From: Letharia columbiana
Lineage: Eukaryota; Ascomycota; Lecanoromycetes; Lecanorales; Parmeliaceae
Direction: 5' to 3'
DNA: 64,000 nucleotides
Assembly (NCBI RefSeq): GCF_014066305.1
Contig: NW_023501036.1
Span: 1,623,501-1,687,500 of the forward strand
Below the pieces are notes generated by a model. The model did no database searches, had not been told where the DNA came from, and saw only the letters and a list, made by a program, of their open reading frames with translations. Position numbers and translations under genes: made by a program. This document shows positions 5,196 to 63,769 of this stretch, in pieces; position 1 is the stretch's first letter; each line of letters begins with the position of its first letter.

Positions 5196-5362
5196 TATAC
5201 CATTCCATGGTATAATACCACAAATATACCATACCGTGGGATATCCCGCCAAGATCCCGAACCCATACCAGAAAAATGGAATGGTATCCGACCCTACCCA
5301 TACCATACCCGGGTACGGTATGGTATCACTTGGTATGGAATATCCCATGGGATATACCATAC
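5196..5362. repeat. Foldback array of GGTATGG-like repeats
   Basis: The block is built from repeated TATGGTAT / ATACCATA words on both strands, including a perfect GATATCCC...GGGATAT-type pairing and a CCCGGG centre in a TACCATACCCGGGTACGGTA palindrome. It can fold into several competing hairpins. It lies between the RIP island and the piggyBac relic, so it may be a terminal or subterminal repeat region of that element or a separate small foldback element. The open frames across it on both strands are by-products of the repeat. Confidence 0.6.
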
Positions 5363-5369
5363 CTTTCCG

Positions 5370-5950: not shown

Positions 5951-6351
5951 TAGATCTAGACTACATTTATTGAATCATATGAATGTGGTGGGGTAGTAAT
6001 CGAAATAATGGTGCGGAGAAAACAATTTGTTGCCTCTCGGCGTTTAACGGATAGAGATCCTCGCTCAGTGGATCTACTCATGCCTTAAGCACATCGAATG
6101 CAATTAACTTACAGTGGTCCCGAATATAATCCATTTTGTCTTTTTTACTGGAAAACAATACGGTACTTTGCCGAAACTTGGAGTCCAGGTGAAATTCGCC
6201 ACTCGTTCTACTTCTCTTTTTCATCATAGAAGTAGGGCACATTAGGGTATTTCTTATTGTTCCCGACAATAAGGATAGTAGGGATAGGTGTTCCCATCTT
6301 GGTAACTTTCAATTTGATTAATTATTCATTCACATCGAAATTTAGAGACTC
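5951..6351. other. Spacer with no recognisable gene
   Basis: This is sequence of moderate composition between the piggyBac relic and the next element. It may include the rest of the piggyBac 3' end. I see no coherent coding frame. Confidence 0.4.
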
Positions 6352-6353
6352 TA

Positions 6354-6424
6354 ATCGTAGTTTAACTATTCGCTTCGCTTATAGTAATCCTTAACTCAAA
6401 GACACACTAGTCTCAAAGACGCGA
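6354..6424 (+). repeat. Left terminal inverted repeat
   Basis: It pairs with the reverse complement of about 8,190-8,263. The core TTCGCTTCGCTTATAGTAATCC is shared with one or two substitutions, and the same core in less mutated form starts the element at 24,250. Confidence 0.8.
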
Positions 6425-42700: not shown

Positions 42701-44220
42701 CACCATACTTCTGCTTTCTGCTTTCAACACGTGCCGGAGGTCTCGGCTTGAACCTTCAAACCGCTGATACTGTCATCATCTATGACTCGGATTGGAATCC
42801 TCACCAGGACTTGCAAGCCCAAGATCGTGCTCATCGTATAGGTCAGAAGAACGAAGTCCGCATCTTGAGATTGATCAGCTCCAACTCCATTGAAGAGAAG
42901 ATTCTCGAACGAGCTCAGTACAAGTTGGATATGGATGGCAAAGTCATTCAAGCTGGCCGATTCGACAACAAGTCCACAAACGAAGAGCGAGATGCCATGC
43001 TGAGGACCTTGCTCGACAGCGCCGAGGCTGCAGAGGCGGGGGCAGAGCAAGAAGAAATGGACGACGATGATTTGAACCAGATCATGGCTAGGTCAGAGAA
43101 CGAAGTTACGCTCTTCAGAAAAATGGATGAGGAGCGAGCTCAAAACGCAAGATACGGTCCAGAAGAGGACAAGCTTCCTCGATTGATGGGCGAGGACGAA
43201 CTTCCGGATATTTATATGCAAGAGGACAATCCCATCGCTGAAGAGATTGAGGAGATCGCTGGTCGTGGGGCTCGCGAGAGAACGCGGGTCAAATATGATG
43301 ACGGGCTCACTGAAGAGCAATGGTTGGCTGCTGTTGATGACGACGAAGATACCATCGAGGATGCCATGGCTCGAAAACATGCCAAGATCGACAGGCGCAA
43401 CGCGAACAAAGATAAGCGGGCGAAGAAAGCTGCAGGAGAAGAGAGTTCTCCCGACATATCCAGGGACAGCTCCGTGGCCCCTTCATCTAAGAAGCGTAAC
43501 CGCAAGTCAGCCGGTGCAAAGCGTAAAGCGGACGAGGACGTCGACGATGAGCCAGCGCCCAAGAAAAAACGTGGTGGTGCACGGCTTAGCAAAGCTATTG
43601 AGACTCTCAGCACGAGTGAGCGCAACCTCCTTCAGAAGATCCTCAATAGCAATTATCAGTATCTCATGGACCTTGAAGAAGAGGTTCCCGGCGAGGAGGA
43701 TGACGAAGGTGGCCCACTAATCAAAGGCTTCATTGATCCTTTCATCAAGCTGGTACCGAAAAACGACTACCCCGACTACTACGTGCTCATCCGTAACCCT
43801 ATATGCATGGAGCAGATCGAGAAAAAGATCAACAAGAAGGAGTACCGGAGCCTGAAGGAATATAGGGAGGACATTCGCCTTCTATGCGATAATGCCAGGC
43901 TCTACAATGAGGATGGCAGTCCACTCTACCAAGATGCGGATAAGATTGAGGTATGTTATACTCTTCCTTTGTGACACTTTGAGCACTTGATTGATGTTCC
44001 GATATAGGCTGCTACTGTGGCGAAGCTGAAAGAAGACACGGAGAAGCATCCCCAGCTCCAAGACTTTGATGACACCACACCTGCCGACGGACGCTCAACA
44101 GCAGCTGTCTCGAGTGTCGGTACGCCAATGGCATCGGGTGCCAACGGAGCCCCCAAGCTCAAGCTTACTTTCAACGGAGGCAGAGACGGATATACTAATG
44201 GACTTAGTGATGAAGAGTGA
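39703..44220 (+). CDS. snf21: Snf2/Sth1-class chromatin remodelling ATPase with bromodomain
   Basis: Exons are 39,703-39,774, 39,869-40,064, 40,118-43,950 and 44,008-44,220 (introns of 94, 53 and 57 nt), giving 1,437 residues. It is the motor of a SWI/SNF- or RSC-type complex. In order: a QLQ-like helix (DEQMRILKNQILAFKML, about 142), an HSA-type basic helix (RSMYRRQKRQSLREAR), the DEXD ATPase lobe with DEMGLGKT (about 590) and DEGH (about 692), the helicase lobe with [12 protein letters not shown] and DRAHRIGQ (about 993), a SnAC-like acidic region, and a bromodomain at about 1,295-1,366 (YPDYYVLIRNP, CDNARLYNEDGS). The short N-terminus favours the Sth1/Snf21 form over yeast Snf2, but many filamentous fungi may have one gene serving either role, so the name is provisional. 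Confidence 0.92.

Positions 44221-44617: not shown

Positions 44618-44655
<38 letters not shown>
44618..44655. repeat. (CA)19 microsatellite
   Basis: There are 19 uninterrupted CA dinucleotides. Confidence 0.95.
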
Positions 44656-44656
<1 letters not shown>

Positions 44657-45028: not shown

Positions 45029-45058
45029 GGAAGGAAGGAAGGAAGGAAGGAAGGAAGG
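45029..45058. repeat. (GGAA)7 microsatellite
   Basis: There are seven consecutive GGAA units. Confidence 0.9.
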
Positions 45059-45205: not shown

Positions 45206-47814
45206 TCACCCTCTCACGACCTCTCGGTATAGATCCCGGAAAAAGCCCGCAGTTTCCCAGAGCGGCAGGATCACGGAGATGGCCGTCGAGCAGAAGACCC
45301 AGCAGAAGGTGATGACCACCCAAGCGATGAAGAAACCTTGCGAGAAGATGTAGTGGGAGAGGAACATGGGTATCGGGATCAGGAAATCCATGGAGAGGGT
45401 GAGCAGGAAGGACGCGATGCATGCGACTTTGAAGGCTCGTCGAAGCTTTCTGGGTTCTTCGACTGCTAGTTCGTCTTCGCGCATCTCTCGCTCCTCGTCT
45501 CGAACGGTGGGGAGGTTGCTGTTTTGGTTCGGGTCGTCCTTTTCGTTCTCTTCTTTGTCGATCGAGCCGGAACTGGGGGTTGTGATGAGGGGTGGCGGTG
45601 CGTTGATCAAGCGTGTGGTATCCCAGTCAAAAGGTTCTGGCTTAGCCAGCGAGACAGCCACTGTGACGATGAGACCGACCATGATGGCGGCGAGATTCCC
45701 GGCCAAAGTTGGATACTCTGCGGACATTTCGGAGTCAGTATCTCTTCTTCATGGCTAATATCCGAATAGTGAGACAGCTTTGGAGAAGTAAAGGACCCTT
45801 TGACTCCGCAAACATGTCGTACAAATCAAAACGTGCTATGAAAGAGGAAGAAGATGCTCCGAAGTATACATACCCATTCCAGTGGTAGATACGCTCAAGC
45901 TCCCATAGTACTGATGCGCGGTGACAAGCCATGCAATAAGCCCAGCACAAAGCCCGGACACAGCTCCTGATAGAGCCCCTGCCTTCGTTTGGCCTTTCCA
46001 GGTGATTGCGAAGGCTGCTGGAAAGACGGCACCACCAATTAGGAGGCCCATAACTAGGAACAACCAGCCTAGGTCGATGCCGATGACATTCCAGATGCAG
46101 GCGACGATAGCCATCACCAAACCCCAGACGCCAATCATGATGTGTGCGACGGTGATGAGCTGCTCTGGTGTGGCAGCTGGCTTGATATAAGTCTTGAAGA
46201 TATCGAAGGTCAAGATCGAAGACACTGCGATGAGCTCTGCTGAAGCACAGCTAGTCACGGCCATGAAGAGAACGATCAGCAAGGCCACAGCGCCACCTGT
46301 TCCCAGCAAGGCCGTAGCTGCAAAGGGTGCCGACAAGCCGGCAGAGACCTGTGCTTGGGTCATGCTGTTTGGATACGTTGGGAAGGTGGGTGAATCTGTG
46401 AGAGCTACCGCTGCAAGCCCTAAAGTAGTGGCAAAGCCGAATGGGATCGCATACCAAGCTAGACCTCCAAGAATGTATGCCCGGACAGCAGTAGTAGGTC
46501 GGCTTGCAATAGCCCGCTGCCAGTAAGCTTGATCCAAAAAAACGGTACCGCTCCCAGAGCAGAGTTGGATCACGCCAAAGATGAGAGCGAAGTTGCTCTT
46601 CATCGTCACATAAGAGCCATCTTGATTGCCTGACACTGGGCGTTTCAGAGCTGCCTGTTTGAGAAGCTGATACATGGCAGATGGAGATCCAATTTGAGAA
46701 TTCGTTGCGTACGCGGAAAACATGAAGTAGAGGATGATGACCATTAAGATGAGCGTGTGAGAGTAGTCACCTCGGTCATCAGGTTAGCATAGGCACCCTC
46801 GGGTGCTTGCGAGAGGCCTTACAAAGGAACGTTGCACGTAAACCGCCCAACACTACATAGACACAGACCCCAAGCGGTATAAGAAAGATGGCAGCATAGA
46901 CGTTCTGCGTAGATTTCGGAGTCAGCATTGCTTGTTTTCGAGGTGGGAAGTGGAGTTGCAAGATAGGTCTAAGGAGTAGGACAATCTTCTTACTCCCGAA
47001 ACATGTCTTGCGACTCAACCTCAACACCAAATAGGCAGGATCAGCTCCGAAATGTACGTACCATGCCGGTCAGAGACGTGACAACTGCACTGCCGCCCAA
47101 GAGAAGCTGGCTGCTGACTAGAACGTTTGTCAGAAGCGCGAAGAAGATGAAGACCCAATGCGTTAGGACGCCATAACGGGTGTAGATGATTTCCAGGTAT
47201 GTATGGCATCTCGGAGCGTTCTGCTTGACTTTGCAAGCCAATATCGAGAACATGAGAATCTGTACAGTCGCACCCGCCGCATACTAGTACAAATGAGCCC
47301 CTTTTCGCAAGATTTAGAGGATACTTGTGTACCCAAAAAGGCCCGGCCACACCATATTCATATGCCACCGTTGAACTCTGAAGCAAAGTTGCAGCCCAGG
47401 TCCATGCGGACACGATACCGCTTGCAATCAAACCTGGCTTCACACTTCTACCTACGCACATTTCGGAGTCAGCGTTGCTTAACCAAGGCACGAAAGCTGG
47501 GATAATGACATAGATCTCAGGAGTAGGAGCAGGGGTTCGCTCCAAGACATAGTCTTGCGGCTCAATGTTTGGTACAAGATGGGGAAGAAAAACTCTGAAA
47601 TGTGCGTACTGGCAGTATTGAACTCCTCGCTCGTTTTCGTTGAGAACCTGGTATATCGATTCTGCGCATGGTCAGCCACTGTCATCATTGGCCCAATTCA
47701 TGCAGTACACACCTGAATGTACGAGATACCACACATAACAGCAGCGAAGAAGAACCCAATTCCAACAACGACACCATAGCCAACACCGACTGGAAGGGGC
47801 TGGATTGAGGGCAT
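45206..47814 (-). CDS. DUR3: DUR3-type urea/polyamine active transporter (SSS family)
   Basis: Minus-strand exons are 47,814-47,713, 47,661-47,610, 47,451-47,333, 47,283-47,062, 46,904-46,823, 46,770-45,874 and 45,717-45,206, giving 661 residues. DUR3 imports urea with a cation at the plasma membrane under nitrogen limitation. The sequence has the family order: [93 protein letters not shown], then many further membrane segments (about 15 in all) and a polar loop near residue 540. Three introns are about 50 nt. The other three are 156-158 nt and belong to the introner family annotated separately. GATA motifs cluster upstream. Confidence 0.93.
45718..45873 (-). mobile_element. Introner-like element A (DUR3 last intron)
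   Basis: A 156-nt intron read on the minus strand. It begins GTATGTATACTTCGGAG and ends TACTGACTCCGAAATGTCCGCAG. The first and last blocks are inverted copies (CTTCGGAG with CTCCGAAAT). Its middle, GTACGACATGTTTGCGGAG, resembles the shared core GAGTCGCAAGACATGT. Confidence 0.8.
46905..47061 (-). mobile_element. Introner-like element B (DUR3)
   Basis: A 157-nt intron. It begins GTACGTACATTTCGGAG and ends AATGCTGACTCCGAAATCTACGCAG. The core TTGAGTCGCAAGACATGT is inverted further on as ACCTATCTTGCAACTC, so the whole intron can form a long hairpin. It is the most complete copy for defining the family. Confidence 0.88.
47452..47609 (-). mobile_element. Introner-like element C (DUR3)
   Basis: A 158-nt intron. 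It begins GTACGCACATTTCAGAG and ends CAACGCTGACTCCGAAATGTGCGTAG. The core reads TTGAGCCGCAAGACTATGTC. Confidence 0.85.
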
Positions 47815-47939
47815 TCGGATTGTGGTTACTGTGGTGGCACTGAAAAAGACGAGGATTGGAAGAGGGACATGAAGAAATACATTATTCTCAGAGTCCCCCA
47901 GGATTTACATGCAGATTGCATGATGTATGATGACGGCGC

Positions 47940-48075
47940 GCTTATCGCCGTTGGGGTTCGATACTTGATAACAACGATAAACATTTGAAAGCTTAGAGAC
48001 TTGATACAATCTAGCCAATGAAGATGTGAAACGATGGCGCCGAAATCCTCTCCAAAGTCCTAAAGAGGCAGGTGA
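47940..48075 (-). promoter_or_regulatory. Cluster of GATA motifs upstream of DUR3
   Basis: Four GATA-type sites occur: the inverse of CTTATC at 47,941, TGATAA at 47,966, CGATAA at 47,975 and TGATAAG at about 48,072. They lie about 125-260 bp upstream of the DUR3 start. Closely spaced HGATAR sites are the binding pattern of AreA/NIT2-type nitrogen regulators, which control urea transporters in filamentous fungi. Function is inferred. Confidence 0.5.
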
Positions 48076-48088
48076 TAAGAAAGCGCAA

Positions 48089-49126
48089 ATGCAACACCCA
48101 TATACCGTATTCAGCCTTATGAGGGATACGCCAAAAGGAGTCAGAAATCCTGCGTCGACGAACATGGTCGACGTCGTTAATGTAGAGCAGAAGATGTTTG
48201 AATTAGAAGCCAAAGGAGATATGCTCCCTTCGGACTTACCTGTACCAAGTCTGTGCGCTCGAAACGCCTTGGCGCCCACCAGCCTGCCCGAACAATTCAA
48301 ACACTGCGTTTCGCCGCTCGTGAGTGCCCCGAGGCGGAAACAAAAGGTGAGTAATACATTTTCCAGAGTCATTCCTTTTTTAAAAGTGACAGACCGAGGC
48401 GCAGAAAGATTGTTACCTTCACGTCGAGTCTGGGCAATAAGCCGAAAGAAGCTGTCGTTAATGTTCATGACTGTTACGAGAAGAGCGTGGAACAGAGTGA
48501 AATGTTGTCTCGCTGGTACTTTCTTTCATCTCTGGCATGTACCTTTTCGACTGCCATATTTGGGCACCTTGCCTATTAGTTGCCATGTCGGAAAAGATGC
48601 TTGTCCCTCAACCTTGGCAGATATGTCCGATGCAATGAATAAGAAAAGTTGTTCATGTCTCGGACATCAAGAGCTGAAGGCTAGCTTGGGAATGTGTGAA
48701 TGCACCCTGGCTGTCCGAAGACATGGATACAGAGCGAGGCAGAAAGTGTGTACTGTGTACTCCGTAGCAAAGCCAGACCAAGAGAATGCCGGACGTAGGG
48801 GCGCCCTGGGCAATTTTGTCAAGACATTAGATCGATATTCTATTGGCCCTTGGGAAAAGACCAGCGGACCAATAGAAGATGGAATTATATCAAGCTATCA
48901 AATAGGGAAGGCGCTGGAACTTGGAAGGCTTGATGCCAAGAAAGAGGCAACCTCGGAAGCGGAGGCTAGGGAACCGCTAGACGCTAGGGGCCGGGATCGC
49001 CCCGAAGAAAACACGGTCACACGGGTCCCCGCCCCGAAGAAAACACAGTCGCACGGGTCCTCGCCCCTCTTTGAATCAATTCATCATTCTCAAGCAGCCA
49101 GCGGACAGACAGAGAATCCAATATGA
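48089..49126 (+). CDS. Long open frame of unknown status
   Basis: A 345-codon frame starts at ATG 48,089; the frame is open a little further upstream but without an ATG. The product is basic, has scattered cysteines (CSCLGHQELKASLGMCEC) and no recognised domain, signal peptide or membrane segment. Near its end a 32-bp direct repeat encodes duplicated APKKTQSHGSS-like residues. The frame runs away from DUR3 over the area that should be its promoter, and no introns are evident. It is either a lineage-specific gene or a chance frame; codon evidence cannot settle this by eye. Confidence 0.3.
   Translation: MQHPYTVFSLMRDTPKGVRNPASTNMVDVVNVEQKMFELEAKGDMLPSDLPVPSLCARNALAPTSLPEQFKHCVSPLVSAPRRKQKVSNTFSRVIPFLKVTDRGAERLLPSRRVWAISRKKLSLMFMTVTRRAWNRVKCCLAGTFFHLWHVPFRLPYLGTLPISCHVGKDACPSTLADMSDAMNKKSCSCLGHQELKASLGMCECTLAVRRHGYRARQKVCTVYSVAKPDQENAGRRGALGNFVKTLDRYSIGPWEKTSGPIEDGIISSYQIGKALELGRLDAKKEATSEAEAREPLDARGRDRPEENTVTRVPAPKKTQSHGSSPLFESIHHSQAASGQTENPI
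48998..49061. repeat. 32-bp tandem repeat, two copies
   Basis: CGCCCCGAAGAAAACAC starts at 48,998 and again at 49,030; each is followed by GGTC/AGTC, then RCACGGGTCC. Two substitutions separate the copies. Confidence 0.85.
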
Positions 49127-49739
49127 AACACTACACCGACAGGTAGTCATGCTCAGGCACAGGCACAATCACAGTCACAGTCACAGGCACGGCTCAGGGG
49201 AAATTGTGCTTCAGGCTACGAAATGAGTGGCGAAATACGAATTATACCTCCATTCTTGACGCCAAGAAAGAAGCCTGGTCCAATGAGACATTGACCTTTA
49301 TCTTCCACTTTCCTGCTTGTATGCAGCAAAGGAAAAGTCATCATAACGAAAGGACCAGGATCATGGTATCTACCTATTATTGTATCGTGCATATGGTACC
49401 TGGGTTCTTAGGCCCAACGGAACAAGAATCTCAAAAAGGAGGGTGCCAACTAACGCTCATCCTGTGATAATATAGCCTTGGCTTGTCACAAACATTCATT
49501 CTATTCGCCCTTCGAAGAATATGCACCTGCTGGATCGACGTCGTGTGCCTCCTGCTTCCGAGTGCCTAACAACCACTCGGACCAGACACATACATGGCTC
49601 CTTCTTCACTCATGCTTCGCCGCCGCTCGACATGCATTCCTGTTCGGCTGCCTTCTCTATATAACACCCCAAGCAATGTCTTCCCAAAGAACCCACGTCG
49701 TTCTTCACACTATTCTTACTTTTCCTCTTACTGTTCAAC
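49127..49739. other. Promoter region of the carboxypeptidase gene
   Basis: There is an imperfect CACAGT/CACAGG hexamer run at about 49,155-49,195 and a CT-rich leader from about 49,590 up to the start codon. No further gene was recognised. Confidence 0.45.
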
Positions 49740-51466
49740 ATGCGCTTCTCCTCCCAAGTCATCTCCGCTGGGCTCGCCCTGAGCTCCTTTGCCCTCGCCT
49801 CCCCCCTTCCCAATGACTCTCAAGCCAAGGACAAACGTTCCTTCGTCGAACGTGATGGTACTAATTATACCGTGTTTGAGCATGCTGCTACTGGCGCCAA
49901 GCTTGAGTTCGTCACTAACTCCGGCATCTGTGAGACTACGCCCGGCGTGAACCAGTACTCAGGATACTTGTCAGTGGGCACGAACATGAACATGTATGGT
50001 CTCCTACGGCTCTCACCCTTTTCGCTCATTTCCTGACAGCATGTAGGTGGTTCTGGTTCTTCGAAGCTAGAAATAGTCCCACCACGGCCCCCCTCGCTAC
50101 CTGGTTCAACGGCGGTCCTGGTTGTTCTTCCTCCATCGGGCTCTTCGTCGAAAATGGACCCTGTCACTTCATCAATGGTGACTCCACCCCGTCTCTCAAC
50201 CCATACAGCTTCAACACCTACGCCAATATGTTGTATGTTGACCAGCCTATTGGAACCGGTTTCTCCTACGGTACGGACTCAGTCACAAGCACGGTCACGG
50301 CCGCCCCATACGTCTGGACATTGTTACAAGCGTTCTACGCACAATTTCCCCAGTACGAGAGTCGCGAATTCGGAATTTTCACCGAATCGTATGGAGGACA
50401 TTATGGGCCTGAGTTTGCTAGCTATTTCGCATCTCAGAACGCGGCCATAAAGGCCGGAAGCGTGAAGGGTGACAATATCGATCTTATAGCCCTGGGCATC
50501 AACAATGGCTGGTACGATTCCGCCATTCAATCCCAATCCTACATCGATTTCTCCTACAACAACACCTACAAACCCATTATCACTGCAGCCCAGCACACAC
50601 AGTTCACCAACACCAATGCACAGAGTTGTGCGCCTCTTCTCGCGAAATGTACCGCCACTACGGGATCCAACTCTGCCTGTGAGAACGCCGACAATACCTG
50701 CTACAATGACATTGAAGGTCCCCTTAGCTCTACCTCAGCCAACGGCGGTGTTGCATTGTACGACTTCGATGTCTACGACATCCGTGAACCAAGCAATGAC
50801 CCATACCCGTACGTACACTTCGGAGCTGATTCTTCCTATTAGGTAATGAAGTTGAGTCGCAAGATATGTGTCGGGAGCACGAAGACCTTTCTACTCCCCA
50901 GACTTGTCTTGCAATTCCATTTCCCTACCTCGAATAAGCAATGCTGACTCCCGAATCTGCGTAGACCAGCCACCTACTCTAGCTACCTACTCCAGCCATC
51001 CGTCACAAGCGCAATCGGTGCCAAAGCAACTTATACCGAGTGCGCAAATGCCCCCTACAACAAATTCACCTCGACCGGGGACGGTAAGCTTACCTCTTCG
51101 GTTACACGAATAGCCGCTAACAAACCCAAAACAGACGCCCGCAACTTCCTCCCAACTCTCTCCACCGTCGTCCAAAGCGGCATCCGCGTAGTAATGTGGG
51201 CTGGCGACGCCGACTGGATCTGCAACTGGTTCGGCGGTCTCGCCTCCGCCAACGCCGTCACCTACTCCGGCACCTCCTCCTTCGCGGCCAAATCACTGGC
51301 CCCCTACACGGTCAACGGGACGGAAGCCGGTACGTTCAAGACGGTCGACAACCTCAGCTTCTTGAGGGTGTATGGAGCGGGGCATGAAGTGCCGTATTAC
51401 CAGCCAGCGCTGGCGTTGCAGGTGTTCGAGCAGACGATGAGGCAGCAGGCCCTGACTGGTACGTAG
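49740..51466 (+). CDS. Secreted serine carboxypeptidase (peptidase S10)
   Basis: Exons are 49,740-49,993, 50,047-50,808, 50,965-51,083 and 51,135-51,466, giving 488 residues. It should remove C-terminal amino acids from peptides outside the cell or in the vacuole. A signal peptide is clear (MRFSSQVISAGLALSSFALA). Family motifs: WFNGGPGCSS, ENGPC, MLYVDQPIGTGFSYG, the nucleophile in TESYGG (Ser about 199), the acid in WAGDADWICNW (about 403-405) and the histidine in GAGHEVPYYQP (about 462). Cysteines and N-glycosylation sites fit secretion. Introns one and three are 53 and 51 nt; the second is a 156-nt introner copy. It converges with INO80. Confidence 0.93.
50809..50964 (+). mobile_element. 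Introner-like element D (carboxypeptidase intron 2)
   Basis: A 156-nt intron. It begins GTACGTACACTTCGGAGCTGA and ends AATGCTGACTCCCGAATCTGCGTAG. The core GTTGAGTCGCAAGATATGTG is partly inverted as ACTTGTCTTGCAATTC. The closest relative here is element B in DUR3, about 4 kb away. Confidence 0.88.
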
Positions 51467-51948
51467 AGCGAGGGCGTGGTTTCTTTTGTCTTGTACATGG
51501 GTTTGGTCCTGTCGATTGCATTGGATGCACGTTTCGGGAGTATTGGATCATGGTGTTAAGAGAGCAGCCTTTTAAAGGGAAAGTCCATAATAGCATAGCA
51601 TTCTAGTGGCGAATGTTAATAACGGACTCCTGATCCAAGGCCTTTGCTGTACGAGTAATTTAGGGGGCGTCTTGCACTGATGGCTCACAGACTGGAGTTT
51701 ATCATTGGCAAGCAACAGCTATGGTTGGACGCAAGAGCCTCTGTGCCTGGTAATCACTCTTCCTTCTCCTTCCGGCAATGCACTCGACACATCGATGCTC
51801 ACATGCAATCTATATTACAAAGCGTACAAAATTCGGCCGGTAGATGGCCTTCCCAATTTCAACCAGTCCGCGCATATGATGCTCCATTGATGTCCCCATT
51901 TTGTTGTTGCCTCTTGACTCCTGTCTCCTAGCTTACACATCTGTTCCC
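51467..51948. other. 3' region between convergent genes
   Basis: Spacer between the carboxypeptidase and INO80. No feature was recognised. Confidence 0.5.
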
Positions 51949-54900
51949 TCAAGCTCCACTGCCGTCTGCGATAGCAAGTCTTTGCTTCGCCGTCTTGGCC
52001 TTTTTACTGATGCCCTTTCTCTTCCCCGGCGCCGTGGGTTCTGGCACTTCCATGGGGGTGGCGGCACCGGAAGGTTTGTTGCTGCCGTCGTCGAAATGTC
52101 CTTCACCTGTTGCAAAAGCACCGTCAGTACAGTTGTCCATCACTGTTGATAGATATGAGGGGTGTCTTACCCTCATGATACATATCATCCAAACTGACAT
52201 CCTTCTTCCTCCCTCCAGTCTTCTTTCTCCCACCTTTCTTCCCCTGCTCCTCGCTCTTCGCCGCGATCTCCTGTTCCTTTTTCTCAATCAGCTCCGCTTC
52301 GTCGTCATCCGCAAGCCAGAGTGCGATATCCTTATTCCGATTGTCTTTGCTTCGGGTATTGAAATCTACACCTGCACCGCCACCGCCTGAGATGACAACA
52401 CGCTGGACTTCTTCCTTTTGTAAGGCTCGCTTGCGGATTCGCTCCTCGATAGTGCCACGAGTGATCATGCGGTAGACTGTAACTTGCTTGGTCTGTCCGA
52501 GACGATGAGCGCGATCCATGGCTTGAGAGTCGATAGTAGGGTTCCAGTCTGAGTCGTAGAAGATGACGGTATCGGCGGCGGTCAAGTTGATACCCAAACC
52601 ACCAGCGCGAGTAGAAAGCAAGAAGATGAAGATTTCTGGTTTTGTCTGGAAGTCGGCAACTGTATCTCTTCGGTCTTCGAGTTTCGTGGAGCCGTCGAGT
52701 CGGAGATATTTGTAGTTGCGGTAGGTGAGGTACTCTTCCATGAGGTCGATCATGCGGGTCATTTGAAAGTAAAGTAGGACGCGGTGGCCACCGTTCTTGA
52801 GCTGACGAAGAAGCTGGTCAAGCTTCGCAAGTTTGCCGGAGTCCGTGACGAAGCGCCGCATCGAAGGCACGTGGATGTTGGTGAATCGGGTTTTTTGTGA
52901 CAACGGCTGTGGAAGGAGGGTGGCGACTGGGTATCTAGCTGGATCAACCTTGGCCTCGATGAGTGCAGCTTCGTCTTTCTCCGATACTCCGTAGAGTGCC
53001 TTTCGCAAAGGTATATTAAAGATGGTGTTCTCCTTCTGGACGCGCGCTTCCTGGTCTGAACAAGAGATTTGGATCGGTGGTGCTGAAGCCCCAGGTCTAG
53101 CACACTGTTCGATCGTGTTCAACCCCTGATCTTCGAACGTATTCTTCGAGATGTTGAAGAGATTGTGCAAGCGGCTCTCTGCAGTGATGCTGCAAAGCGG
53201 GCGGCGATCGTTTCGCTCCACGATGTTGAAGAGAGCATGTGCAGGAGTGTGATTAGTCTCTTCAGTTTCATCATACACGACATTGAAACGTGCAAGACGA
53301 GAGGCTTTTCCAGCAAGCTGAATTGCTCGTTCGGCCACACCTTGGTGGGAGGCTCTGTACGCTTCGGTTGCTGATATGTTGGCGAACCGCATCCAGGAGA
53401 AAGTGGCATTGTCCGATGAGCTCTTTTGGATGTTCTCAGGCGTCCAGATGTTCATCAGTTCAGTTAAATATTTGCCTCTGAACCCGGCTTTTGAGTTGTT
53501 AGGGCCTGCCACATCAAGTCTCGCTTCCGGACTGCAAAGTAGGCGCGGAAGGTCGTATTCGATCAAGTTTCTTGTGGAATAGCCAACATTGACGTTGTTG
53601 CCTTCTCTCATGAAGGAAGCACATTCTGCAAAGTGTGCCAATGACAGCGGTGAATTTGTATCGGCTCTCTCGAACAAGTCAGGATGATTGCAAACCTTTC
53701 TGAACTGCATGACTAGGTTCATCAATGTCGCTGTGTCTTGATCGTCACCAACTGCAGCCTTTTCGATAAGATCCATGATGCTGATCCGATTACGGAGATT
53801 GCCATAGTATGCGCGTTGACGGTACGTCAGATCGCAGAAGACATCTTCTTCGATCTTGTCGCCCAACTCTTTCTGAACGTGCTTCTTGATACGCCGTAAC
53901 ATGAACGGCTTGAGAATCATGTGCAGTCGCTTAAGCTGATCCTCGTTGAGCTTGGTATTGCTCTGGGCGTGACTCTCAATGTCTTTGGAGAACCAGTCGC
54001 TGAACTCATCGTGGGAATCGAAGAGACTGGGCATGATGAAATGCAGCAGAGCCCAAAGCTCCTGCATGTTGTTCTGAATTGGCGTCCCGGTCAACAGTAG
54101 GCGATTTCGGCAAGCAAATCCCAGTAAGCTCTTCCATCTTGAACTCTGCGAGGACTTGATAGCTTGAGCCTCATCCAGAATCATGTACTGCCAACGGATT
54201 TTCGAGAAGTATTGAGTGTCTTGCACAACCAGCTGATAAGAGGTAATGAGGACATGGAATGGTGAGTCTTTTGTATAGGTGATGTGCTTCCGATCCCAGA
54301 ACTTTCGTAGCACCTTTCGATCCTTCGCATTTCCCCAGTAAGGCAGACACTTTAGATCGGGAACGAAGCGTGTTATCTCCTGTTGCCAATTGTGCAATGT
54401 GGACGAAGGTGCAATGACAAGGAAGGGACCCCAGATATTGTGCTTCTCAGCAAGGTAGGCCATCACCGATATTGACTGCACAGTCTTCCCTAGCCCCATC
54501 TCATCTGCCAGAATCCCGTTGATGCCCTGCTCGTACAGGTTGACCAGCCAATTGAGCCCCTTGAGCTGGTATTCCTTCAATTGGGCGTTCAGCATCTTGG
54601 GCTGAGCAACGTCAATGTCGCCTAGTCCAGTGGGGTTCTGGAAATTCATCTCGCCCTCGTCGAATTGTGCCATCTTGTTATCATCGCCATTAAAAGCACG
54701 AGCTTTGTTTTGAGCTTCCTGAACGGCATTTTGCGCATTCGCCATTGCAGCTTGTCTAAGGACAGTCTCATCCTCGGCGTCAAAGTCGAGATCCTCAAAA
54801 TTGGTGACTTTGCTGCCGACTTGAGCTACGCTATCCGGCAATGTGATTGCATGGGCATCTGCCTTGCCTGGTTGAACAGTCTCCTTGGACACACTAACAT

Positions 54901-57338
54901 CTGCACTGTCTGTTGATCGCTCCACCTCATCGGTCTTGATCTTGCGACCAATAAAATGGGAGTAAAGTTCCGTCTGCGAGATCAAGAAGTTAAGCTTGCG
55001 CTTTTGCCGATTGGATTCACGGTCTGCTTCGGCCTTCTTTGCATTCTCTTGCTCTTGCTTCTCGGCGACCTTTCGTAGGTCTCGCTCCGCCCTCTCATTG
55101 CGTTTCCAGAAGGACATCATCTCTCGCATGCTTCTCTTAGCTCGCGCTTGCACATCTTTGGTACCTTTGTTGGTACGCAGCTGCCATCTCCGAGCCTCCT
55201 TTGCTGCCAGCTGGGCTGTCTTCCGGAGATTGGATTGCTTTATCGATAGTGAATTGTCCTTGATTCTACTAACCTTGGGTACATCCTTCCGTGCGATGTC
55301 TTTCCAGATTGAATCATAGACCTGCTGGAAACCTTTGGAATCGTAATTGGTCAACGTCGACGTAACCGGTGAAGCATCCTTCGGGATCTCTCTAGGCCGG
55401 ACCTCTTTTGTTCCTCTTGGATAAGTATCTCTTCGGTTCTCTTCTTTCGGGGCTATCAACACCAAGTCGTCCCGTTCCCTCTCCTGCAAGGCCCAACCGT
55501 GCTCAGCGGCATCCTTTTCGGCCTGCTTCTTCTCTTTTGATTTCTTCGGTCGTACAGAAGGGCCCTTGATCTTCTTCCGGGGTGGCTCAGGCGAAAGATG
55601 GCTGGCACTCTGGAACGTGCTCATTGTACCACCTTCAAGGTTTGGTGCCATTGGTGTGACTTCACGAATCTCTTCCGGTATGTCACCCCGTTCTAGAATT
55701 CTCTTGGTGGTTTTCGCTTTCTTCTCCGCCTTCTGTGCATCTCTCATGAATCTTTCCCGTTCGGCTTCATCGTCAGCCAACTTGACTTTCTCGAGCGCCT
55801 CTTTCTGCAATTGGGTCTGTTGTTGTATGGTCTTCTCGCGTCGGCGCTTGCGTTGCATGTCCTTCTTGCGCTCCTTCTCGTCCTGGACCTCTTTGCGTTG
55901 GACCTCTTCAAGGGCTTGAGTTTCGTTGATTTGTCTGAATCGCTCCTTACCATAATCTGCATAGGCACCCAATTGGAGCGAAACAGTCCTGGATGCAGCG
56001 GTGCGACGGCGCTAATATTTCTGTGTCAGCTTCGACGAAACAGTGAGGGGGAGAAGTGGTCGACATACCTTGCGCTTGACTTCCTCGCCATTTTCAACAT
56101 CCCGCTGTCGCTTCTGGGAAGATTTGGCATGCTTCTGCTTGTCGGCCTCATATTCTGGTAACTCAATAGGACTCAACGGCGTTGCATCTATCTTTGCCAT
56201 TTCTTTCTTGACCTTTTCGTTCTCTTTGTCTGAGGTCATTGAGCCAGGCTTCAGCTTGCTGCTACCTAAGCTCTTTGCAGGAGGGAGAAGTTCAGGTTCG
56301 GCCTTAACAATGTGCTTTGTCGGGGCCAGATAGCCTTTTGGTGAGGCAGTGCGTTTTGAGCCAGACTTTCTCGGTGCTGTCCGTGAAGGTTTGACGTCTC
56401 CGTTCGGGGTGTGCGAAGAACTCTTTAGCGGCTTCAAGGCAGGTGTAGACCGCGGAGTAGATTTCGGGGGATCAGGAACATTGCTTGAGAGAATGCTTGA
56501 GAAAGACATCGGGTTTGCGGTCCTTGTAGCCTTGGGCTCTTCCTTTGCGCGGATCTGACCATCATCTTCATCAATATTTCCTTGAGAAGATGGTAGGTCC
56601 ATGGAGCCGTTGATTCGCGATGTGTAGTTGAAGCCGCTTTGCGGATGTATTGGGGATCCAAGAGCGCTTCTTGCAGGTGATTGTGGGATGGAGCTATGTC
56701 TACTGGGTGGGTGTGCATGGGATGACGGTAATGTTGGCGAGCGCTGCGAGAGGTGACCGGTCGGGGAGTTATATGTGACTGGAGAAACTTTTGGATCTGA
56801 GTACTGGCTAGAATATGAGGCCGGGTCTCGAGTCTACACCACAACTATAGTCAGCCACATGGAACGCTGGACACACTTCACTGCCCAAAGGACCTAGACT
56901 CACCTGACCCGGCGAGCGTGTGTTGTACTGTGATTGCTTCTTACTTGGCATTTCACGATGTTCCGACAATGGATCGTAGCGTGTAGAGCCGTCAGAATCT
57001 CTATGGGAATATGCCGAGCCGTTTTGTGAAGGTCCATTCGTCTTGGGAGAAGGCGGAGGTCCTAGACGTGGGCTAATGGCGGGAGGTTGTTGTGACATGG
57101 TTGCAGAGGTGGAGGGTCGAGAGGAGTATTGATGGTAGGGTGAAGGAGGATGTGTTCCGTTACCAGGCGAGTAAGGATGACTATGGGTCGGCGACTGCGG
57201 ATGATAATCCCTTCGCCGGCGATCATTTTCCTCGTGGTATCTCCGCGTCACTGAGGCTGGAGGAGAGTGCATCGTGTTTGATGTTGCAGCAGCCAAGGTA
57301 AATGCGTGATCTCCTTGGCGAGTCGTTCGGGGCGTCAT
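51949..57338 (-). CDS. INO80: INO80 chromatin remodelling ATPase
   Basis: Minus-strand exons are 57,338-56,904, 56,833-56,069, 56,011-52,171 and 52,106-51,949 (introns of 70, 57 and 64 nt), giving 1,732 residues. It is the motor of the INO80 complex, which slides and edits nucleosomes in transcription, replication and repair. The first 600 residues are proline/serine-rich, then coiled-coil and charged. The DBINO region ([39 protein letters not shown], [14 protein letters not shown]) lies at about 630-760. The ATPase lobe has DEMGLGKT (about 900) and DEAQAIKS (about 1,015). As in all INO80 proteins, a long insertion separates it from the helicase lobe with [20 protein letters not shown] and MDRAHRLGQ. 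The last exon adds EGHFDDGSN and a basic tail. ATG 57,272 is an alternative start. Confidence 0.95.
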
Positions 57339-58320
57339 TCAGTCAAGAGAGCTTGGATGGATGGGTGGCATGGTGTCCAAGTTGGAATAGGGAATGAGGC
57401 TATCCAGAAGGTTGAACTGTGGGCGAATGTAGTCATCAATGAAGCCACATCAGGCGCAGATCTTATTGTGCCCAGACAGGGCGCGGGTGTGGGTCAGTCA
57501 GCAAGGGTCGTGGATATTATTCGATGATTTTGGTCCGGAACGACGAGGAGGAGGTGTTAGATTGTGGTGTTGCGATGATTTAGAGGGGGGAATGATGTGG
57601 GAGAGATTGCCGGGAGGATGGCGTTCCATTTTGTGATGGTGTTGGTCGGCCTGCTGGAAGCGTCAATCGCAGCCAAACGCGAGCAAGATTATTGCCTACC
57701 CATCGAGTGGAAGCTTCGTTGGCGGAGTACTTTCTACTGAGATTTCATCACTGCAGCTACGACTACTCATGGAAATTCTTTCTCTCATCATTGCACATCA
57801 ATATTTTTCATCTATCTTATTTTTTTATCATAAACTGACTATTACTCTTTGGAATGCGTGATCTTCTTTTCACGTACTCTTATCCAGCGGGCGCATGCTT
57901 GTTTCATGGGGGGCAAGCTGAGTAGTACGTGCCCTTGATCCAATTCATTATTGAGCCTTATCCTTGTCCTTAGCTCCGGCTCGCTTTCTCCATTGCACCA
58001 ACCAGATGCGGCCTACATTCACCAAAATTGCCCCTCGCTGCCGCTTTGCCTGTCCTACCACGCATATATGCACGGATGTCATCGGGGCATACTTCTGCCT
58101 CCATACATTCATTGCCCTTTGTCGGCAATTCTTGTCCCATGTGAGATTTCATCTTCGCTCTCCCCTCCAGGCCGCCAAAGCCTTGATTACGACGACACCT
58201 GCAGAATAACGACATGGATTAATTCTACAACGGAGCTAAGGCAAGGTATGCCCTTCCCAGGCTATCTAATACATTCATCATGTGGTATAATCACCGTACT
58301 AAACCATCCCAAGTCACTTC
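57339..58320. other. Intergenic region, INO80 promoter
   Basis: This lies between the 3' end of NHX1 and the start of INO80. AT-rich patches occur at about 57,790-57,850. No gene was recognised. Confidence 0.45.
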
Positions 58321-60556
58321 CTAAACGCCGCCGCCGCCCTTCCTATTCTGATCCAGCAGCAGCCTGGGCTTGATAAAGCCTTCGTCAAGCTGTGTGAACC
58401 ACGCCGCTTGTTCTTCTGATGTGCCAGAAAAGAGTTGGCTGAATGCTCCGGTGGCACTCAGATCGACATCCCCGCTTGGCGGGTGGTTCGTTGCGGCAGG
58501 AGATGATCCTGCTGCTGCTGCCCGAGGGTCACCCCTGGTTGGAGACGCTTTTATTCTTGGTGGCCGAGTCCGAGCTGCTGGCGGAAGGTCACTATCAGAG
58601 TATAGATCTTCCTCTTCGCTGGGCACATTGTCTCCTCGAGCCAACAAAGACTGACGCGCGAACTCGGCTTCCCTCTCCCTCTGACCGACAGTAGAGTTGT
58701 TGCGGGATGTTGGTCTGTTTGGAGGGCTGACGCTGGGTGTCCCACTACTATATCCAGACTCCGCACCTCCATTAACGCGGAGACCGTTCCTATCAACTGG
58801 AACACCGCTGCCCTTCCGTGGCTGTGGCAAGTAGCCCACTGCATTGCCCGCACTTTTGTAGTAGGTACCATTTGTAGCTGTTTCGATGTCAAATTCGTCG
58901 TCCGAATCGATCTCTTCGACCACGCCAGTCCGAATGCCCATGATCTCGAGCATGCGGGCGGTAGTGCCGCCAAATATGATGACGGTGAGGACAACCACCA
59001 CAAGAACCGTAGCCTGTAGAGTGGGACCATTGGCTCCAGTTAAACCAGCAGCCAAGGCCACCCCGACAGCACCACGTAGTCCAGCCCAGAAAAGCATTAC
59101 TTGATACGAATAAGGGAGCTCATCGGCCACATCTTTCCCTCTCCGTCTTGCACGGTAGCGGATGAACCAGTTGATGGCTCTCGAAAGAGGGAATACCGCA
59201 CACCATCTTGCCGCGCATATGCCGATGATGGCAATGAGAATAAATAAGGGCTTGAAGTATAGTGTCGTCTCCGTGAACAAGGTCAGTCCGAGATAGATGA
59301 AGATAAAATTTTCTGACAATTGTGCAAGTGCTGAAAACATGTATTTCGTAGTCAATTGTGTACGTCGTGACATGTTGTAGTACGCATAATGTTTCAAGGT
59401 AATGCCACAGAACAAAAGGCTGACGATACCTGGCGAATATTTAGCATTGCCACCACAAGCGACCATCTATGTTTGTAGCCTGCACGAACCTGACATCATT
59501 GCTCCATTGGCAAAGTAGTAGCTTGCGTATGCGATCAGGATGATCAGACAGCTCTCAATCTTGGGAAATCGGCGAACAAGGGTAAATTTCAGTAAGAGGG
59601 CCGTTCCAATGCCGACGATGATTCCAATGATGAGACTCCCGAAAAACACCAGGAAGAATATACCAATAGCCTCGAAGAAACTAACGATGGTCAGAGAGCC
59701 GCCCCTATTGCCGTCCGGCTTATATCTCTGTGCCGTGTCGAAGATGACGATGGCGATTGCATCGTTCAAGATCGACTCTCCAAAGATGACGGTGTACAGC
59801 TTTGGGTCAACCTTGTACGTGTTGAAAATAGCCAGAATAGTGACTGGGTCCGTAGCCGATAACGTTGCCCCTACTGATATTGCCTCCACGAAAGATATCT
59901 GGAAGCCGTCAAGAGGTATCCGTGTCCACAACCACAAAAACAAGCCTAGCACGATAGCTGAAATGAAGGTCCCCGCAAACGCAAATGTCAAGATAGTGCC
60001 GATGTTGCGGAAAAAGTTTGCTTGATGTAGTTCGTATCCAGAGGCTAGGATGATCGGAGGAAGGAGTAGGTTGAAGAAGAATTGGTAGTTAAAGCTGACG
60101 GTGTTTTGGATGAATGTTCCCTCGGTCAACTTTATTATCAGACCGGCGCCCATGCCTACACAAGGTCAGTCGACACATTACTTCAAAGCCAATGGCTGCA
60201 GAAAAAGTCCCACCAGCAAAGATTGAGATCACCGTTTCGTGTATTGCTTGTATCTTCTTGTGCTGTAGCATATAACTGGCAAACAAAGCCAGTATGAGCA
60301 GCATGATCAGAATGAACAATGCCCAGGAGGAGAAAATCTCCTTCTGTCCAGCCTCCGGCTCTGTAGAGTCCCTCTGTCAGCCATCCAGTCGTTGGCCCGA
60401 CGCCGAGAGTCCACTCACCGCCATCTTCCGGATCTGCCTCATCGTCGGCTTGTCTTTCTATACGAGTCGGATTGTCAGAGAAAGTCCAGCGTTCTGTAGG
60501 GGGTAAGGCATCATACTAAGAAGCTCATAGACGGCGTTGCCCATGAGCGAAGCCAT
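58321..60556 (-). CDS. NHX1: NHX1-type endosomal Na+(K+)/H+ antiporter
   Basis: Minus-strand exons are 60,556-60,517, 60,457-60,419, 60,360-60,214, 60,155-59,490 and 59,429-58,321 (introns of 58-60 nt), giving 666 residues. It exchanges Na+ or K+ for protons at late endosomes and vacuoles, controlling lumenal pH and salt tolerance. The short first exon reads MASLMGNAVYELL. Membrane segments begin at FILIMLLILALFASYML. NHE hallmarks are HETVISIFAGMGAGLII, FFFNLLLPPIILASGYELH (amiloride-site type), SATDPVTILAIF, FGESILNDAIAIVIF and LRGAVGVALA. The cytosolic tail after about 430 is polar and serine-rich. It is divergent from the sugar transporter, about 0.8 kb between starts. Confidence 0.92.
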
Positions 60557-61358
60557 GCCGACGAAGTGCTTCTTTTCCAGGCGGCTCCCGGGACGAACGC
60601 ATCTGCCTCAGCAATCACGGCAAGGCAACCTGTGTGACGGTAGTGATACTACGAAGACGGGAACACATCATCTGGCGAACGTCTTTCGATGGTTACTGAA
60701 GCTTCGCAGTGAGGTACTTGATCTACGCCAAGACTTGTCGCGAGAATGGTAGCCTTGGCGGGACTAGAGGTGTTATACAATCCGATAACCGATAATATGC
60801 ACCTCGCGGCTACAACAAAATTCCCTAGCGGACTTAGGAACCACAGCCACAACCTGCTATTATTTTATTGTCCTGCGTGAATACAGGACATTCTTGCATT
60901 AAGTATTTGCTCGATGTCTTGAGGCCTCGAGGGTGATATCTTACTGATGGCTTTGATGATCTGCGCTAGTGCTCACTCCCGCCCCAGCCCCACCAAAGCG
61001 GGACCTCCGACCTCAAGCTTCGAGGCTGGCTGTTGACATTTGGCCTTTTTTACCTACATGTCCCTGTACAGTCTCGCAAAGATAGATCGCTCGCCCAGGC
61101 TAGAGACATCTCTCGCTAGACAGCTGCCTGGGAATCCTTTCTTTACCAGAACGGGCGCCTGACTTGGTCATTCAGCCCAAGTGCAGAGGAAACAGCAGAC
61201 CATGGACCCATTCAAGAATTCATAAGACCCTCTTGGATCTTGACCACAAATCAATTCTCGTCCGAATCGACAAGTGCTTCGATTATACAAGGCTCCCACT
61301 TTCGCCTTCTACCGCTGCCTACCTTTTCCAAACCATCACGGTCGAAGCGTCGGGTTTC
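60557..61358. promoter_or_regulatory. Divergent promoter of NHX1 and the sugar transporter
   Basis: An 800-bp region lies between two outward-facing start codons. No specific site was recognised. Confidence 0.45.
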
Positions 61359-63769
61359 ATGGCACAGGATCCATCAGCATCGCGCCCTGTCTCCAGACTG
61401 TCGAAGGAAAGCTCTCGGCAGCAAGGAACGACCGAAAGTCATGTCTCGTCTCCTTTGAGTTCTGCGAAAGACCGAAGTAGGCCAGGATCCCTTAACTTGA
61501 ATGAGAGTTCGCCTCTGCTTTCACCACAGCGGTCCCAGGATGAGCGTGGACCCGAGGACCGCGGTACCTCTCCAGGACTATTAGACTGGAACGAGGGGGA
61601 AGAGGAGCAATCTAAGAGCACATTTTACCTCATCATATTGACCTTGGGCATCGGAGGGTGAGAGTACTCTACCCATACCCTGTCAGCGTTCTATAAGAAA
61701 AATTGAGTACTGACGGGATTGACACAGGCTACAAATAGCGTGGGCGACGGAGCTGTCCAATGGCTCTGTAAGTACAGCGGCCCGATCAGACGGGTCTTGT
61801 GTGCTAATAGATATGATGAACAGCCATATCTTCTTTCACTGGGCATGAGCAAGTCTCTACTCGCTTTCGTATGGATTGCTGGGCCGCTCTCTGGTACTCT
61901 TGTTCAGCCGTACATCGGGATCCGAAGTGACAATTGCCGGTCACCATGGGGGAAGAGGGTACCGTACGTGTGATCCGGAGCCATTCTCCACAATGTGTAC
62001 CAAAACCTGAGTCGCAAGACATAGTCCAGGAGCAAAACCCTCCTTCCACTCCTGCACCTGTCTCCGAACTTAGGCTTCTTGCCTCGAAGAAACAATGCTG
62101 ACTCCGAAATCTGCGTAGGTTCATGCTAGCAGGCGCATTGGCTACGGCAATTTCCCTTCTATGCTTGGCCTGGGTACGTTGTACATTTTGACGCAATCCT
62201 TCCCCATTTATGCCGTCTTATGAACCTCCAATTATGTCTCAAGAGTTCTCTGCTCCAAAGACATATCTCGCGATCCTGAATTTCTCCCGAGAGAGTCATG
62301 CTGACTCCGAAATCATCAAGACGAGGGAAATCGTGCACGGATTTCTCGGGCTTTTCGGCGCGAATCCAGAATCGCATGGTGTCAAAGTCTGCTCAATCAT
62401 CTTCGCAATCATCTTCGTATACGTATTAGATTTTGCAATCAATACAGGTGAGTTCTGAGTCACATCTCTCGATAAATGTCGCTAACATTCTCTAAGTTCA
62501 AGCGGGCGTCCGCGCCTTCATAGTTGACTATGCACCAACGCATCAGCAGGAGGACGCCAATTCGTGGGCTGGCCGAATCACTGGCATCGGCAACATTCTA
62601 GGATACATCTCCGGCTACGTGAATCTCCCAGAGATTTTCCCCTGGCTAGGCAATACACAATTCAAGGTTCTCTGTGTCATCGCCAGTGTCTCCCTCTGCG
62701 GCACGATCGCGATCACCTCTCTCTACATCCGCGAACGCGATCCTCGTTTTGAAGGCCCCCCTTCCGAGGCTAACCCTGGGATCCTCAGCTTTTTCCGCCA
62801 AGTATTCAACTCGATACGTCGACTTCCCCCCAGAGTCGCAAAGTGTGCGAAGTGCAGTTTTTCAACTGGATGGGCTGGTTCGGCTTTCTATTCTACATTA
62901 CAACCTGGATCGGTCAATTGCATGTCAACCCTTACTTCGCCTCACATCCCGACCTCACACCAGCCGAAATCGACAAAGCTTGGGAAGACGCCACGCGGGT
63001 TGGCACATTCGCACTCTTGATATTCGCCATCACCTCCTTCACCTCCAACATGCTCCTTCCATTCCTAGTCGTTCCCTCCTACCACGCCCCTCCTCCCAAG
63101 ACTCCTTCCACTCCGCCGCACCACACTCCAGGGACACCCGGTACCCTCTCCGCAAGTACATATTTCTTTCCATCCGCACCTTCACCATCTCCAACGCTTC
63201 ACGCCCGTTTAAGCCGCCTCTTGGACCTTTGCCAGATAAAATGGCTCACCCTCCGCCGTGCCTGGCTACTCTCCCATATTCTCTTCGCCCTCTGCATGGC
63301 CTCGACGTTCTTTATCTCCACCCCGACTCAAGCCACGGTCTTGGCCGGCGTCGTCGGCTTGCCATGGGCTCTCTCTTTGTGGGCCCCTTTTGCTCTCATA
63401 AGCGCTGAAATATCGAAACGAGACAGTGAGGCCCGGCGGGGAGGCCCCAACCCGAAGAACAAGCCAGAAGATCAAGCCGGTGTAATACTCGGTCTTCACA
63501 ACGTCGCCGTTGCAGCTCCCCAAATTGTTTCGACATTGGTGTCGAGTGCCATCTTCAAACTCGCGCAGAAACAGAGAGGAGAACCCTATGATACTAGCGT
63601 AGGGTGGGTACTCCGGTTTGGTGGACTAGCAGCACTGGTTGCGGCGGTCTTCACTTGGAGGATCAGGGAAGACGCGGAGCCGGTTAAGGGGAACGGAAGA
63701 AAGCGGGAGGGAGGGACCGGGGAAGAGGAGAGAGGTTTGAGAGATCATCAGGATGGGGAAGCGGTGTGA
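61359..63769 (+). CDS. Sucrose/alpha-glucoside-type GPH transporter, apparent frameshift
   Basis: Exons are 61,359-61,657, 61,728-61,767, 61,824-61,963, 62,119-62,173, 62,321-62,447 and 62,497-63,769, about 640 residues. It resembles sucrose/H+ symporters of the GPH family (MFS fold, about 12 membrane segments). The N-terminal tail is polar. Then LQIAWATELSNGSPYLLSLG, KSLLAFVWIAGPLSGTLVQPYIG, SDN...WGKRVPFMLAGA, AFIVDYAPTHQQEDANSWAG and FNWMGWFGFLFYITTWIG follow the family. The frame breaks at CCCCCC 62,826-62,831: SIRRLPP lies in one frame and QSRKVCEVQFF in the next, as if one C were missing. A 32-nt GT...AG removal at 62,803-62,834 would also restore frame but drop conserved residues. Introns three and four are introner copies. 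Confidence 0.83.
61964..62118 (+). mobile_element. Introner-like element E (sugar transporter intron 3)
   Basis: A 155-nt intron. It begins GTACGTGTGATCCGGAGCC and ends AATGCTGACTCCGAAATCTGCGTAG. The core CTGAGTCGCAAGACATAGTC matches the other copies. Confidence 0.88.
62174..62320 (+). mobile_element. Introner-like element F (sugar transporter intron 4), divergent
   Basis: A 147-nt intron. It begins GTACGTTGTACATTTTGACG and ends TCATGCTGACTCCGAAATCATCAAG. It keeps the 3' block with branch point CTGAC but has lost much of the middle and the inverted 5' block, so it is probably an older copy. Confidence 0.7.

Follow-up and report, generated by a model that had tools for sequence, protein, structure and literature searches.

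An introner-like intron family in Letharia columbiana whose adjoining exon bases follow the intron tree

The window analyzed here, a stretch of 64,000 nucleotides from Letharia columbiana (C1:1623501-1687500), belongs to a 52.2-Mb genome of 161 contigs that we also scanned. Three genes in the window hold six introns, A to F (156, 157, 158, 156, 155, and 147 nt, respectively), that belong to one introner-like family. Judged by sequence comparison, the exon bases at -1 and +1 of this family, and none beyond them, follow the tree of the introns themselves.

Six related introns and their genome-wide family

The six copies and the parts of copy B that define the element are as follows; scores are against a profile of the family, and junctions give the exon bases at -1 and +1.

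45718..45873, minus strand: copy A, intron in the sodium:solute symporter gene; 80.6 bits; junction G|A
Splice sites of copy A, minus strand: GTATGTAT..GTCCGCAG
46905..47061, minus strand: copy B, intron in the sodium:solute symporter gene; 142 bits; start motif exact; junction G|A
47045..47061, minus strand: 5' terminal inverted repeat of copy B, including the 5' splice site GTACGT; exact motif match
46905..46921, minus strand: 3' terminal inverted repeat of copy B, its last bases being the 3' splice site AG; start and end motif matches
46921..46926, minus strand: putative branch-site motif GCTGAC of copy B; C, T, and A invariant across 22 aligned copies
47452..47609, minus strand: copy C, intron in the sodium:solute symporter gene; 97.5 bits; junction A|G
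50809..50964, plus strand: copy D, intron in the serine carboxypeptidase gene; 150 bits; junction C|A
61964..62118, plus strand: copy E, intron in the transporter-like gene; 100 bits; junction C|G
62174..62320, plus strand: copy F, a diverged intron in the same gene as E; 37 bits; junction G|A

The gene holding A, B, and C was assigned by Pfam scan (PF00474), as was that holding D, in which the exon open reading frame (ORF) at 50228-50842 matches PF00450. The gene holding E and F, which we take to be transporter-like from its motifs, gave no Pfam match in its one scanned ORF. The family profile, made from copies that include those of the window, has exactly six matches in the window and no match once the window is reversed, which bears out a sequence-only reading of this DNA that had described six introns of 147-158 nt as one family. 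Copy B is nearest to the profile among A to C, and copy F, with the 3' end ATCATCAAG, is the weakest in the window. The same reading had the six share a start, a core, and an end motif. At up to three mismatches these motifs are indeed well above chance: the start motif has 8 matches versus 0.11 expected (four at intron starts, in A, B, C, and D, and four inverted at intron ends, in A, B, C, and E), the core 3 (B, D, and E) versus 0.04, and the end 4 (B, C, D, and E) versus 0.00. Exact start and core motifs occur only in B, however, an exact end only in E, and copy F matches none of the three at this threshold.

By its sequence, each copy is a self-sufficient intron, predicted to be spliced and built as a near-complete inverted repeat. 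A typical copy of ~155 nt carries a 5' splice site, a branch motif, and a 3' splice site of its own, with a consensus that starts with GTACGTACATTTCGGAG and ends with GCTGACTCCGAAATCTGCGTAG. GTA at the start is invariant in the 22 aligned copies, as are the C, T, and A of GCTGAC, presumably the branch site by comparison with known fungal branch motifs. The ends are 17-nt inverted repeats that mismatch at three bases in the consensus, one of them the outermost. The inverted repeat spans the intron from the T of its 5' GT through the A of its 3' AG and leaves both outer Gs unpaired. The consensus folds as one hairpin (-59 kcal/mol), the minimum free energy (MFE) of 34 of the 40 best-scoring among 110 copies has z < -2 (median -3.4), and self-matches of copies on the opposite strand occur (55 bits in L006, for example). 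The inverted ends and hairpin of the sequence-only reading thus stand. An RNAalifold consensus of the mixed alignment is weak (17 pairs, -2.0 kcal/mol) while single copies are strongly folded, perhaps because of diverged copies in the alignment.

Of the 109 5' ends in the fetched loci, 98 are followed within 400 nt by a 3' end, at distances of 122-333 nt (155-156 nt in 44 cases), and 11 are not; of the 118 3' ends, 16 are without a 5' end. We observed ten long forms (including L120, L051, L050, L138, L064, L007, and L031) with ends as in the 155-nt form and a longer interior; nine are 210-223 nt long and the tenth 333 nt. In L007 (C34:217476) and L114 (C29:218910), a copy abuts the AG of an older copy, head to tail and with zero bases between. 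The second copies in both have somewhat decayed 3' ends, and the next base after their AG is C, which makes each a G|C site. A spliceosomal twin intron (stwintron) of the [D1,2] type was considered and rejected: by eye, the introns run from GTACGT to AG as one unit, with no nested donor between bases 1 and 2.

Genome-wide, the 18-base 5' end at up to three mismatches has 210 matches versus 34 for the reversed pattern, and the 22-base 3' end has 138 versus 0 in the reversed control, so that the objection of absent further copies fails. A DNA search gave 90 candidates, of which 40 were scored and 40/40 matched the family. Run over 144 sequences (the window and the loci, two window duplicates excluded), the profile gave 226 separate matches: 192 with assignable GT and AG ends, 23 without a site, 9 at an edge, and 2 duplicates. 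Junction counts below use the 98 copies in which both ends keep at least 6/8 bases, 94 copies with decayed ends being excluded; later tree and folding analyses use a set of 110. All copies were chosen by similarity to one family. The 98 are introner-like in that similar introns stand at unrelated gene positions and their likeness extends up to both splice sites, which are supplied by the element, as the sequence-only reading had proposed; from -2 and +2 outward, their flanks have no pattern in common.

Old, decayed copies are common near younger ones: 68 loci >3 kb yielded 67 secondary matches beyond the best one and 0 in the reversed control. Two pairs of loci, L002/L012 (C1/C140) and L008/L009 (C109/C77), have identical flanks on two contigs each and are gene duplicates or unmerged haplotypes; the introns of L002 and L012 score 141 and 113 bits. 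A total copy number extrapolated from the window was dropped, the window having been picked for its copies. Overall, the family is a large, partly decayed introner-like set in an ascomycete related to lichen formers.

Sense and seamless insertion into coding exons

By their sequence, nearly all tested copies lie in coding exons, in sense, seamlessly, and free of target-site duplications (TSDs). In 64 copies the coding score of exons joined at GT/AG is 147.9, versus -43.6 and -83.4 for joins shifted by one and two bases, and the sense score exceeds the antisense score in 50 copies and falls below it in 14. Flanks of 60 nt on both sides were obtainable for 93 of the 98 copies; with these the frame is open in sense for 87/93 and in antisense for 53/93, versus 2418/4080 (59%) at random sites. 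Secondary matches lie on the strand of the primary copy in 60/67 cases.

Among 20 joined proteins picked for open flanks, a Pfam family spans the junction above cut-off in 10; the other 10 comprise one MFS span below cut-off, one chance-like weak match, one family that ends at the junction, and 7 without a match. Eight joined proteins were compared with solved structures, and the 6 with a relative are all gap-free at the junction to the best one; the remaining 2 have no PDB relative.

TSDs of 1-8 nt are not above shuffles in the 98 copies. Repeats across the intron number 19 versus 23.6 expected for 1 nt, 4 versus 4.8 for 2 nt, 3 versus 1.5 for 3 nt, 1 versus 0.4 for 4 nt, and 0 for 5-8 nt, and repeats of at least 3 bases at shifted offsets occur in at most 5/64 copies at any one offset. 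A one-base TSD formed by the shared outer G was rejected because C|A sites would then lose a base from the reading frame.

These results bear on the MITE-like DNA-transposon origin favored by the sequence-only reading. An ordinary MITE (miniature inverted-repeat transposable element), moved by a cut-and-paste transposase with TSDs, would account for the 17-nt terminal inverted repeats (TIRs) and for length variants of 122-333 nt with common ends. It would not account for the lack of TSDs or for the strong sense bias in exons, where insertion in either orientation and outside genes would be expected; insertion into genes and in sense only speaks against a plain DNA transposon. Nor did we see an enzyme-coding-length element with the family ends in the fetched loci, many of which are <1 kb and most too short for one (the genome was not scanned for it). 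We consider such an origin hardly probable at all.

Exon bases -1 and +1 follow the intron lineage

The junction dinucleotides of the 98 copies are C|A (29), G|A (19), G|G (18), G|C (10), T|G (6), and others (16), and lineages differ in the one they tend to bear: one big lineage is C|A, and others are G|A, G|C, G|G, T|G, or A|T. On a tree of the 98 introns, made from short diverged sequences and without support values, base -1 needs 21 changes versus 41.3 when shuffled (z -9.0) and base +1 needs 21 versus 41.1 (z -9.7), with 0/500 shuffles as low in either case. For the 14 positions -8 to -2 and +2 to +8, z ranges from -2.4 to +2.1; position -7 is lowest (11/500 shuffles as low), followed by -2 (34/500).

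The signal withstands several restrictions. On a tree of 110 introns made from the inner intron only, -1 and +1 have z of -8.9 and -9.1, and shuffling only among copies alike in their first 4 and last 6 bases leaves -6.1 and -6.8. It is weaker yet present in 44 copies with the start GTACGTAC and the end GCGTAG (-4.6 and -3.8). Each base also carries its own signal: among 59 copies with G at -1, base +1 has z -7.1, and among 56 copies with A at +1, base -1 has z -5.0, with -2 and +2 flat. The dinucleotide is shared by 73% of 51 pairs at 85-90% inner identity versus 11% of 3477 pairs below 60%. A constant base would pair with -1 or +1 as well as any column of the intron does, so that no built-in guide was found. 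Background introns gave 14 strict matches, too few to use as a comparison.

Under a rule set beforehand, new copies that nest in a clade should bear that clade's dinucleotide. Queries L135, L038, L059, and L041/L061 were named in advance, and L118, from a second C|A clade, was added later with the rule unchanged. Of 19 new places requested, 14 were retrieved, with no new member of the A|T clade among them. The query clade's dinucleotide occurs in 7/14 new copies versus 2.45 expected from frequency (P 0.004 if independent), and for the pre-named queries in 4/10 versus 1.27. By query, matches were 3/4 for the second C|A clade, 3/5 for G|G (with G at -1 in 5/5), 1/1 for G|C, and 0/4 for T|G. Taken together, these comparisons suggest that insertion tends to pick a dinucleotide equal to that at its own source.

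The dinucleotide is older than the intron at four C|A sites. In each, the joined exons show no gap against the best solved relative, with the interrupted residues conserved:

L004, Rab, C|A site: split residue Gln
L014, HPDK, C|A site: split residues Asp-Lys
L088, malic enzyme, C|A site: split residue Gln
L010, monooxygenase, C|A site: split residue Gln

Because Gln codons always begin with CA and three of the four conserved sites are Gln, CA was in the gene before insertion. The conservation of the split residues also led us to reject the idea that the flanking C and A are parts of the element added to the exon. At a G|C site in an ABC transporter (L027), Gln-Pro matches the better of two domains shown, and Gln alone matches the other.

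Spliceosomal reverse splicing is the usual model for fungal introner-like elements. The excised lariat would insert into a different transcript, or alternatively into an R-loop's coding strand, before being copied to DNA. Sense bias and exonic, seamless, TSD-free insertion all fit this model, as excerpts of PMC8469720 argue for fungi. An exon-base-free lariat, however, cannot itself transmit -1 and +1, yet both track the intron tree, so the independence from donor exon bases expected of a lariat product is not what we found. Reverse splicing also leaves the hairpin without a role, as the excerpts themselves say. We regard it as unlikely, while still giving it some weight.

The strongest alternative that keeps the tree signal is a changing enzyme with a clade-specific target. 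Here the flanks would not be carried from the donor; instead, bursts of insertion would take place under an enzyme or a splicing filter that favors differing dinucleotides. Lineages with a single dinucleotide are also groups of related copies, and C|A is common (29/98), as this alternative would have it. But differing dinucleotides are used by lineages with near-identical ends, the signal persists within identical-end groups, and its confinement to one base per side would be unusual for the target preference of an enzyme. A splicing filter should not favor C at -1, a poor 5' splice-site context. Such target choice seems to us decidedly unlikely.

For Hypoxylaceae, excerpts of PMC12403724 propose a route in which a double-strand break receives intron RNA by ligation and this RNA then becomes DNA. 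The symmetry of the introns, their terminal repeats, the unpaired terminal Gs at the foot of the fold, and the lack of a TSD would all suit this proposal, which predicts random junctions, whereas here the junctions are lineage-bound. We think it very unlikely for this family.

A candidate mechanism and its relation to known systems

The reading that we prefer, to which we give a probability of roughly 40%, is that the mobile unit takes along one donor exon base on either side and requires a dinucleotide that matches, the bare excised intron not being what is copied. An excised intron, whether lariat or linear, has no exon base and therefore cannot pass on -1 and +1. If these bases are handed on, then a carrier must take part, either DNA whose cut lies one base beyond the intron or RNA left uncut at the splice sites. 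A more specific version, which we put forward tentatively and at less than even odds, is that the unit consists of the intron plus exactly one exon base per side, cut one base outside the hairpin and fitted into a matching dinucleotide of the coding strand of a transcribed gene.

In such a mechanism, the donor would be DNA or unspliced RNA with one flanking base at each end, and the hairpin or terminal repeats would set the cut one base outside the intron. Integration would take place at an identical dinucleotide in the target, such as C^A; with both one-base ends able to pair there, zero bases would be gained or lost. That only one base per side is involved and that the join is free of loss both point to single-base ends pairing with a gap of two bases. 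Likewise, sense-only insertion suggests single coding strands of transcribed genes as donor and target; these may be displaced coding strands (e.g., in R-loops), from which a single-strand hairpin would be peeled and pasted. A nick one base outside the element, as made by hAT-type transposons, is a precedent for such ends.

Several observations weigh against the donor-carried bases that we favor. Half of the new copies (7/14) do not match their query clade: all four of the T|G query, 2/5 of G|G, and 1/4 of the second C|A clade. In L150, the sole match for G|C, the 3' end is poorly preserved. The T|G query yielded copies with the junctions G|T, G|G, G|T, and G|G, all nearest to window copy C (A|G); since they nest with it, that group keeps no single dinucleotide. 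Some close pairs disagree (L025 and L026, for instance, share 97% inner identity yet have G|G and G|A), and L003 is a G|G copy placed among C|A copies. At L073, a G|A site, the residues by the junction differ from those of the relative, with no gap. Sense-only, genic insertion is itself a prediction of RNA models, and the terminal repeats may not be needed for copying.

If the more specific version is true, perfect introns would be made by a kind of transposition that is TSD-free, dinucleotide-matched, and strand-specific, with the free lariat ruled out as donor. The origin of new spliceosomal introns, and whether fungal introners move as RNA or as DNA, is a long-standing question. A memory of flanking bases offers a purely computational test between an intron-only donor and one that carries exon bases, and all published introner families are open to this test. 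Should the memory recur in other families, that would weigh strongly against reverse splicing as the model for fungi.

Other features of the window concern its setting and host. Positions 1-8000 have a GC content of 21-30%, versus 43-55% elsewhere, and look like a decayed AT-rich block, possibly caused by repeat-induced point mutation (RIP). A CA dinucleotide run and a GGAA tetranucleotide run occur in intergenic sequence at 44618-44656 and 45030-45058. The window also encodes two SNF2 proteins:

52124-55972, minus strand: SNF2 protein with a DBINO domain, likely INO80
40111-43974: second SNF2 gene, Sth1-like

Among the best 120 of 2590 relatives of the Sth1-like protein, the top one has 95% identity and the best named ones (77%) are from Lecanora helva and Psora testacea, both Lecanoromycetes; further named relatives include Agyrium rufum (Lecanoromycetes) and Candelina mexicana (Candelariomycetes). 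Most of the named genera are lichen formers. The host is thus most likely a Lecanoromycete, and the Dothideomycete setting evoked by the sequence-only reading does not apply.

The bacterial IS200/IS605 elements may serve as a working analogy: they too are hairpin-dependent, TSD-free, and strand-specific, inserting beside a short fixed sequence. We have no evidence of kinship with them, and no search aimed at HUH enzymes was made. Among eukaryotes, the repeat-bounded introners of Aureococcus and Amoebophrya, as described in excerpts of PMC7789003, likewise have inverted repeats at both ends and a hairpin; here there are no direct repeats at the exon boundaries, and the GT-AG ends lie inside the element. 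The introner-like elements of Dothideomycetes (excerpts of PMC4457414) also comprise many similar introns per genome, with decaying copies and several per gene. Compared by description, the present family differs in its host, most likely a Lecanoromycete, and in its lineage-bound junction bases.

A survey of 548 introner families, PMC9860276, describes introns that likewise come from a spreading element with a genic bias; in its excerpted text, ascomycete introners are said to have no TIRs or TSDs. This family, from an ascomycete and with clear TIRs and no TSD, contradicts the statement as to TIRs, as the Hypoxylaceae papers had. The latter (PMC8469720 and PMC12403724) offer a close likeness in many respects: going by their excerpts, the symmetrical sister (stw)introns of Hypoxylaceae and Xylariaceae are similar introns with TIRs and a hairpin, inserted seamlessly and in sense without a TSD, with the terminal Gs brought together and a symmetry that decays in older copies. 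Compared by description, the introns reported here belong to another fungal class and are canonical rather than [D1,2] stwintrons. Among the open-access literature matches listed, we found no report of introners from lichen fungi or of inherited junction bases. The excerpts on the Hypoxylaceae and Xylariaceae introns report no bias in the bordering exons, whereas here the exon bases at -1 and +1 track the intron tree, and this is the new feature of the family.
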